56,630 nucleotides of DNA from Anaerolineae bacterium (GTDB lineage: Bacteria > Chloroflexota > Anaerolineae > Aggregatilineales > Phototrophicaceae): positions 1 through 56,630 of the forward strand of contig JAPKMO010000011.1 of assembly GCA_026645945.1 (NCBI GenBank). The letters run 5' to 3'. Below the pieces are notes generated by a model, which made no database searches, was not told the origin of the DNA, and worked only from the letters and a program-made list of their open reading frames with translations. The stretch's first letter is position 1. The number at the start of each line of letters is the position of its first letter. Shown piece by piece: positions 50,860 through 54,889 of the stretch. A program made the position numbers and the translations under genes.

Positions 50860-50893
50860 CTGATAGCTTTTGAAAGATTCGTCATGCTAAATT
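50860..50893 (+). promoter_or_regulatory. Shared motif and likely promoter of the mevalonate operon
   Basis: CTGATAGCTTTTGAAAG (50860-50876) matches 54616-54632 at 15 of 17 bases. In both places GCTA-type -10-like sequence (TAAATT at 50888-50893) follows 12 bases after the TTGAAA/TTGATA core. The HMG-CoA reductase ATG is 7 bases further, with no ribosome site, so the transcript may be leaderless. Spacing is too short for a standard sigma-70 promoter. Confidence 0.45.
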
Positions 50894-50900
50894 GTGTCGC

Positions 50901-52186
<1,286 letters not shown>

Positions 52187-52190
<4 letters not shown>

Positions 52191-52241: not shown

Positions 52242-53327
52242 ATGTCTGTAAACCGAATGAACCCCCTCAACCAGAATTTTCTGATGCACCCTGACCGGCA
52301 GGTGGGCATCATTGGTTACGGCGCGTATGTGCCGCGCTACCGGCTGCCGGGCGTGGAAATCGCCCGCGTGTGGACGAACGGCCTGGGCGGCAGTCCGGTC
52401 AAAGAAAAAGCCGTCGCCGGGCTGGACGAGGACGTAACCACCATGTCCATCGAAGCGGCGCGCAACGCTCTGGCGCGCGCCCGCATTGACCCACTCGACA
52501 TCCGCGCCGTATGGGTGGGCAGCGAAAGCCACCCCTACGCCGTCAAACCGACCAGCACCATTGTTGCCGAAAGCATCGGCACATCGCCGAACATCACCGC
52601 CGCCGACTGGGAGTTCGCCTGCAAAGCCGGGACAGAAGCGGTGCAGGCTTCAATCGGTTTGATCGGCAGCGGCATGGTGGGTTACACACTGGCAATCGGT
52701 ATGGATACCGCGCAGGGCCGTCCTGGCGATGCGCTCGAATATACGGCGGCCTCCGGCGGCGCGGCCTATATCCTCGGCCCGGCGAACGAAGCCTGCGCAG
52801 TTTACCAGGGCAGCTACAGTTTTGTGACCGATACGCCCGATTTCTGGCGGCGTCCCGGCGAGGAATACCCCAGTCACGGCGACCGCTTCACCGGTGAGCC
52901 GGCTTATTTCCACCACACCCTTTCGGCGGGGCAAACGCTGCTGGAACAGATGGGGACGACTGCCGCCGATTACACCTTCGCCGTTTTTCACCAGCCGAAC
53001 GTAAAGTTCCCTTCGCGCGCGGCGGAGATGTTGGGCTTTAAACCGGAACAATATAAGACCGGCCTATTATGCGGCGAAGTCGGTAATGTTTATTCCGGCT
53101 CGTCCATGCTCGGTCTGACGGCCATCCTGGACATCGCCCAACCCGGCGACCGGATTCTGATGGTCAGCTACGGCAGCGGCGCGGGTTCGGACGCTTTTGA
53201 CATCCGCGTGACCGACCGTATTACCGAGGTGCAGAAACTCGCGCCGACTACCCGCGATTATATCAACCGCCGCACGCCGATTGATTACGCGACCTACGCC
53301 CGCTACCGGGGCAAGCTCAAGGATTAA
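52242..53327 (+). CDS. Hydroxymethylglutaryl-CoA synthase, archaeal type
   Basis: A 361-residue thiolase-fold enzyme that condenses acetyl-CoA and acetoacetyl-CoA. The nucleophile Cys127 is in [11 protein letters not shown], the general-base Glu in [12 protein letters not shown], the His250 in FHQPNVKFP, and the CoA-side GSGAGSDAF is present, so it looks active. Size and motifs match the archaeal HMG-CoA synthase that forms a complex with thiolase and DUF35 protein. ATG 52242 follows GAGGAC by about 9 bases. Confidence 0.92.
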
Positions 53328-53404: not shown

Positions 53405-54556
53405 ATGCGAGATGTAGCGATTATCGGGATTGGACAGATTCCCGTCGGCGAGCATTGGGCTTCCGGCCTACGGCAGTTGGCCACCATTGCCATTCATGAT
53501 GCCCTCAACGACGCGGGTCTTAAACAGGTAGACGCTTTATACGTCGGCAATGCCTTCGGCGCAGCCTTCAGCAGCCAGACGCACCTGGGCGCGCTGGTGG
53601 CCGACTACGCCGGGTTAGGCGGGCCAGAAGCCTACACCATCGAAGCGGCGGACGCCTCCGGCGCGGCGGCGCTGCGAACCGGCTACCTGGCGGTTGCGTC
53701 CGGCGCGGTGGAAACGGCGCTGGTCGTCGGCGTCGAAAAATCAACCGACACAGTAGGCGATGCCCGCACGCTGGCGCGTAATACCAGCCTGGACGCCGAT
53801 TATGAAGCCATGCACGGCGCGACCCAAACCGCCCTGGCCGCCATGCTGATGCGCCGCTACATGCACGAATACGGCCTGGAGCTAAACGCCTTTGAAGGTT
53901 TTAGCATCAATGCCCATGCTAACGGCGCGCGCAACCCCCGCGCTATGTTCCGTAATACGCTTAAACCCGGCGGCTTTGCTAAAGCGCCCATGATTGCCGA
54001 CCCGGTTAACCTGTTCGACAGCGCCCCGGACGCCGACGGCGCGGCGGCAGTGATTTTAACCACTCTTGAACGCGCGGTTGATCTGGTTCCGCAGCCGGTT
54101 CGTATCACCGGCAGCGCCGCTGCCACCGACTCGATGGCGCTGCAAGACCGCGCCAATTTGTTATACCTCAGCGCAGCCAGCCGTTCGGCTTATAAGGCTT
54201 ATGCACAGGCCGGCATCACACCCGACGCGGTTAACCTGTTCGAGCTGCACGACGAATACACCGTCATCGCGGCACTTTCGCTGGAAGCCGCCGGCTTCGC
54301 CCCACGCGGCGAAGGCTGGAAACTGGCACAGGAAGGCGCGCTGAGTCTGACCGGGCGGCTGCCCATCAGCACTTTCGGCGGGCTGAAGGCGCGCGGCAAC
54401 CCTGCCGGGGCGACCGGAGTCTACCAGGCGGTCGAGGCCTGTTTACAACTGCGTGACCAGGCCGGAGATAATCAGGTTGCCGGCGCAAAAGTCGCGCTTA
54501 TCCAGAACCTCGGCGGACTAGGCGGTACGGCCATAACGCACGTGCTGCAAGTATGA
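53405..54556 (+). CDS. Archaeal-type thiolase homologue without catalytic Cys and His
   Basis: A 383-residue protein of the SCP2/archaeal acetoacetyl-CoA thiolase family, in the usual place beside HMG-CoA synthase. The fold motifs are intact: VGNAFGAAFSSQTHLGALVADY, NAHANGARNP, ELHDEYT (His282) and GGLKARGNPAGATG. The nucleophilic Cys of the ACASG motif is Asp83 (ADASG), and the His of the GHPxGATG motif is Asn332. Only one Cys exists in the protein (Cys346), far from the active-site position. Ordinary thiolase chemistry is therefore unlikely. It could be a structural partner of the synthase. Confidence 0.85.
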   Translation: MRDVAIIGIGQIPVGEHWASGLRQLATIAIHDALNDAGLKQVDALYVGNAFGAAFSSQTHLGALVADYAGLGGPEAYTIEAADASGAAALRTGYLAVASGAVETALVVGVEKSTDTVGDARTLARNTSLDADYEAMHGATQTALAAMLMRRYMHEYGLELNAFEGFSINAHANGARNPRAMFRNTLKPGGFAKAPMIADPVNLFDSAPDADGAAAVILTTLERAVDLVPQPVRITGSAAATDSMALQDRANLLYLSAASRSAYKAYAQAGITPDAVNLFELHDEYTVIAALSLEAAGFAPRGEGWKLAQEGALSLTGRLPISTFGGLKARGNPAGATGVYQAVEACLQLRDQAGDNQVAGAKVALIQNLGGLGGTAITHVLQV

Positions 54557-54706: not shown

Positions 54707-54889
54707 ATGCAAATCTCCCGACACTGGCGACTCAACCCCCTGCGCTACCGCCTCCAGGGTGTGCGCTACGAAAATGGCTCGGTCAGCCTCCAGGCTCGCC
54801 CGGCGCCTGCCGCCGAGGAAATTGACATGCGCGATGCCCGCGCCACCCGTCCAACGGTAGAAAAAGCGGCCCTGATGGCGGGGCGTTAA
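54707..54889 (+). CDS. Cysteine-free N-terminal DUF35-like (zinc-ribbon remnant) small protein
   Basis: A 60-residue ORF with a clear GAGGAG ribosome site 9 bases before ATG. Its start, ISRHWRLNPLRYRLQGVRY, matches the helix that begins DUF35 proteins (RHWR...RYRL), which normally continues into a CxxC...CxxC rubredoxin-like zinc ribbon. Here that stretch reads YENGSVSLQARP and has no cysteine at all. The OB-fold half is a separate gene four bases downstream. It seems to be a split gene whose first half still anchors to thiolase/synthase but no longer binds zinc. Confidence 0.65.
   Translation: MQISRHWRLNPLRYRLQGVRYENGSVSLQARPAPAAEEIDMRDARATRPTVEKAALMAGR

Follow-up and report, generated by a model that had tools for sequence, protein, structure and literature searches.

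In the well-known archaeal complex of thiolase, DUF35 protein and HMG-CoA synthase (HMGS), a single CoA pocket serves to pass acetoacetyl-CoA from one active site to the other. The 56,630-nt stretch of Anaerolineae DNA analyzed here (the window) encodes these partners with a thiolase that has neither the catalytic Cys nor the catalytic His. The question is what such a subunit does beside an intact synthase and where the synthase obtains its substrate.

All of the genes concerned lie on the forward strand in the order HMGR-HMGS-thiolase-DUF35. The HMG-CoA reductase gene (PF00368) spans 50901..52190, counted from the first ATG of an ORF listed from a TTG at 50892, and is followed by an archaeal-type HMGS of 361 aa with Cys127 intact (52242..53327), for which the window's genome holds one strong match, the second-best reaching only E 5e-13. 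The 383-aa thiolase-fold protein adjoins it at 53405..54556. DUF35 is present as two separate ORFs, a 60-aa N-terminal piece without zinc Cys (54707..54889) and the OB-fold piece (PF01796; 54894..55199). The gene order HMGS-thiolase-DUF35 given in the preliminary description therefore stands, with the correction that DUF35 is not one ordinary gene, being split and lacking its zinc ribbon.

The thiolase ORF matches PF22691 (E 6e-42) and PF00108 (E 3e-13). Its AF2 model (46 sequences in the alignment) has a mean pLDDT of 87.7, with a weak stretch at residues 111-140 (pLDDT ~55-72). The protein shares with the Methanothermococcus thermolithotrophicus thiolase (6esq, 6et9) its fold (Foldseek TM 0.96, query-normalised), its gene partners and the HD motif, and differs in having Asp and Asn for the Cys and the GHP-type His and a split, zinc-less DUF35. 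The best PDB sequence match is Pyrococcus furiosus PFC_04095 (7yvy; phmmer E 9e-110, Foldseek TM 0.91), which likewise has an HDxF motif but keeps Cys83 and the GHP His. In fold and family sequence the window protein agrees with archaeal-type acetoacetyl-CoA thiolases. In the alignment, the nucleophilic Cys is replaced by Asp83 (GAC, 53651..53653), within ADASG at nucleotides 53648-53662, and the His of GHPxGATG by Asn332 (AAC, 54398..54400). The HDx[FY] motif is retained as HDEY at residues 282-285 (54248..54259, computed from residue number), and the single Cys is Cys346. These positions and codons are as first described, and the Pfam matches, the fold comparison and the selection reported below agree with the earlier view of an intact fold and frame with no obvious frameshift.

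Among the 98 genomes searched in the window's family, 94 had some match to the window thiolase, and in all 29 best family matches (window excluded) site 83 is Asp or Glu and site 332 is Asn. A close set of 104 distinct sequences, counting the window's own and reaching down to 60% identity, has D in 78, E in 21, N in 2, G in 2 and Q in 1 at site 83, N in 102 and H in 2 at site 332, and HD at 282-283 in 100. The preliminary description had proposed an alignment with relatives and had named Cys83 in close ones as the mark of a sequence error; the alignment found the Asp/Asn pair conserved, with no Cys83 among the 29. Sequencing error is ruled out by these identical residue classes, and error or a decaying pseudogene is an extremely improbable explanation, since separate genomes show the same state and dN/dS is low (0.079, 0.083, 0.085 and 0.108 against four relatives). 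The window thiolase gene evolves under purifying selection; against the two closest genomes its dN/dS is ~0.08 versus 0.02-0.04 for HMGS. The protein has the attributes of a pseudoenzyme, namely, homology to an enzyme, absence of the catalytic residues and a constrained gene. A complete fold and gene context would also suit a working thiolase with Asp83 or Cys346 as substitute nucleophile, but this is very unlikely given that both catalytic residues are replaced in 29/29 relatives, and Cys346 cannot be essential because the ORFs of 5 of the 29 hold no Cys.

From the collected loci, 186 distinct thiolases were obtained, a sample skewed to the window's relatives in that it includes the best-scoring 80 loci. 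An HMGS ORF lies within 3.5 kb of 164 of them, and Cys83 is absent from 134 of these and present in 30 (one being the L251 paralogue described below). Asp or Glu at site 83 with Asn332 (D/E+N) is found in the window's family, in relatives belonging to its order and in the greater part of family f40. Gly83 with Phe332 (G+F) characterizes most of family f32, and Gly83 with Asp332 (G+D) occurs in L242-L245, where the HD motif is lost too. Intermediate combinations were seen as well: beside HMGS, L222 and L250 retain Cys83 with His332 changed to Asn, and L098 shows the opposite half-step, Asp with His. The distant thiolase homologues L313 and L314 (38-39%) have Pro at the nucleophile position and an intact GHP. 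The synthase keeps its Cys in 156/156 rows where a complete HMGS lies no more than 4 kb away; in 127 of these the neighboring thiolase is a non-Cys one.

In a tree of 102 rows built with the active-site columns removed, 55 rows form a non-Cys clade (support, 94/92) across many Chloroflexota families. Parsimony for Cys versus non-Cys requires 4 changes on both trees, corresponding to this clade and three single rows. An AU test of one origin for all 58 non-Cys rows gave p 0.076, and adding two of the three single rows one at a time gave p 0.47 for L216 and 0.22 for L237. Several independent losses are not claimed, as the AU tests fail to reject a single origin despite the 4 parsimony changes. 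On the basis of these sequence comparisons we claim one old Cys loss, possibly followed by later ones, and the loss is confirmed to that extent as an old, phylum-level change that goes beyond one gene. The initial observation on the single gene was correct; the phylum-wide extent of the loss and the split, zinc-less state of DUF35 had been missed.

The median ratios of thiolase to HMGS divergence are 1.07 for Cys/His copies and 1.55, 2.00 and 1.43 for D/E+N, G+F and G+D copies, respectively, and in the HMGS identity bin of 0.65-0.70 thiolase identity is 0.642 for Cys/His pairs versus 0.554 for D/E+N pairs; these figures are descriptive only, because the rows are related to each other. Among 107 columns conserved in Cys/His copies, the D/E+N group retains 88 (at ≥80%) and has lost six (<20%), namely, the group-defining columns 83 and 332 together with 128, 141, 145 and 369. 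Columns 83, 141, 145, 284, 332, 365 and 369 fall below 50% in all three non-Cys groups. A fold and most conserved noncatalytic columns that persist under purifying selection could also belong to a CoA-ester sensor, a dead thiolase that binds acetoacetyl-CoA or acetyl-CoA and tunes HMGS allosterically. We regard this role as quite unlikely, and sequence data hardly tell it from a scaffold.

The second partner of the archaeal complex has changed as well. The window's DUF35 has the OB fold, lacks the zinc ribbon and is divided between two genes; by alignment the 60-aa ORF is the N-terminal hairpin, with no Cys and no Pfam match, and it looks like a real gene because its dN/dS is 0 to 0.17 against four genomes. 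Where a Cys thiolase has HMGS close by, a four-Cys ribbon is present in 25/25 DUF35 proteins found. Of the 104 found next to non-Cys thiolases, 66 have no ribbon, and for 46 of these the N-terminal part is an ORF of its own, the arrangement seen in the window. DUF35 was not found within 1.5 kb downstream (less at locus ends) in 30/134 non-Cys rows and 5/30 Cys rows. Ribbon state requires 3 changes on the tree, with loss in 0/26 Cys rows read. As the bridging DUF35 is divided in the window, has no zinc ribbon there and was not found in the downstream stretch searched in some rows, the complex may differ from the archaeal one or may have been lost.

A synthase beside a dead thiolase would need acetoacetyl-CoA from elsewhere, and the earlier suggestion that another thiolase supplies it is well supported. 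In the window's genome, Cys and GHP motifs occur together in three thiolases, and there is an additional Cys/His paralogue on another contig. A Cys/His paralogue was also seen at L251 (10361-11542), ~1.4 kb from an HMGR-HMGS-pseudo-thiolase cluster on the same strand, with DUF35 not found just downstream there. DXS is above cut-off in 0/98 family genomes (with weaker, mostly partial matches in 98/98), so the mevalonate route is probably, not certainly, the sole route in the family. A TIGR01930 thiolase is above cut-off in 96/98. The two exceptions that have the pseudo-thiolase are G096 (97% complete), with a partial TIGR01930 thiolase gene near a contig edge, and G020 (71%).

Among 56 genomes of known state, TIGR01930 was above cut-off in 29/29 with a non-Cys thiolase and in 22/27 with a Cys thiolase; having such an enzyme therefore need not lead to Cys loss. 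Across the class, 53 of 396 genomes had no TIGR01930 match above cut-off when ~4 candidates were scored per genome, and rescoring these with all candidates (28 of 59 for G290) again gave 0/53. The sampled genomes without TIGR01930 keep the Cys wherever it could be read: 43/43 close homologues with a legible site, at 51-58% identity, have it, and position 332 is His in the 42 that could be read there too, the homologues having been chosen by similarity to the window protein, with HMGS linkage read for a minority. Outside the 43 are six genomes without a match, G180 with only a 38-residue fragment, G278 and G441 with only a distant homologue (38-39%) that has Pro at the site, and G266, whose gene comes as two pieces that leave the site unread. 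Tests corrected for kinship, which set Cys loss against either ribbon loss or another thiolase, had 2-4 usable pairs and gave no signal either way. The correlations with ribbon loss and with another thiolase rest on few independent events, and raw counts are given because independent pairs are too few.

Taken together, we consider it likely that the protein is a pseudo-thiolase kept as a structural part of the synthase complex, with acetoacetyl-CoA coming from a separate thiolase. Its ancestor would have been the acetoacetyl-CoA thiolase of an archaeal-type thiolase/DUF35/HMG-CoA synthase complex. The catalytically dead descendant would stay on as a structural subunit, completing or shaping the HMGS face that binds CoA, and a separate Cys/His thiolase would make acetoacetyl-CoA that reaches the synthase from solution. 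We infer three things: the protein lacks activity, the complex persists, and the subunit contributes to the CoA site. The part ascribed to it, keeping HMGS and the CoA site in shape, is suggested by the archaeal enzymes, which share one CoA site according to PMC12329534. The preliminary description had likewise suggested a scaffold with an outside thiolase, and the conserved Asp/Asn pair, the constraint on the gene and its faster divergence than Cys/His copies all support it. Linkage to HMGS is not strict, because family f2 keeps its Asp/Asn protein away from HMGS, which counts against a scaffold. No HMGS was seen in the stretch examined at L089, L155, L156, L161 and L173 (f2 and kin), all with an Asp/Asn pseudo-thiolase; in four f2 genomes HMGS is on another contig, and in three of these four short loci HMGR adjoins it.

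The conservation of site 83 as Asp or Glu, of Asn332 and of HD at 282-283 in 99, 102 and 100 of the 104 window-clade sequences, respectively, also weighs against a free scaffold, as it seems to exceed what one needs. It would suit a Cys-free enzyme in which an Asp/Glu83-Asn332-His282 pocket performs new acid/base chemistry on CoA esters, such as decarboxylation, hydrolysis or an aldol-type reaction. The retained HDx[FY] motif is consistent with this, and there is a precedent in Sal, a steroid aldolase with Gly at the nucleophile position (PMC12329534). Like the window protein, the Ltp2/Sal aldolases (6ok1, 9myr) combine a thiolase fold with a DUF35 partner; they differ in their YDHF/YDCY motif, steroid substrates and hydratase partner, the window having HDEY. 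Sulfolobus tokodaii ST0096 (4yzo) also has the thiolase fold, with Ser at the nucleophile position in an alignment read by eye, but is 27% identical to the window protein and keeps GHP.

A Cys-free enzyme is nonetheless an unlikely explanation, as the YDHF/YDCY aldolase motifs are absent, divergence is faster than in Cys/His copies, and sister lineages beside HMGS have Gly83/Phe332 or Gly83/Asp332 with no HD motif. Because these sisters changed the sites differently, a scaffold is favored over one shared new reaction, and Cys-free chemistry, raised at the outset as an alternative, may hold for the Asp/Glu-Asn lineage but is disfavored as a common explanation. It stays alive in the window's clade because the sites vary less there than a free scaffold predicts. 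A new Cys-free CoA-ester site coupled to HMGS in this clade, with the sister lineages as pure scaffolds, is conceivable, if at slightly longer odds; one complex subunit would then have met two evolutionary fates after thiolase chemistry was lost.

Title and abstract searches of the literature, with most subscription journals outside their reach, returned no report of a dead thiolase beside HMG-CoA synthase, and PMC3857490 does not use the word thiolase in its main text. If the scaffold reading is true, naming such genes acetyl-CoA acetyltransferase from homology would be misleading. In many Chloroflexota what was once an enzyme has probably become a structural component, with another thiolase supplying the substrate of the mevalonate pathway. 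Were this so, isoprenoid carbon would enter through a different thiolase in these bacteria, and a subunit kept with its first site switched off would have a second job, for which the natural Cys/His and Cys-less versions allow comparison.
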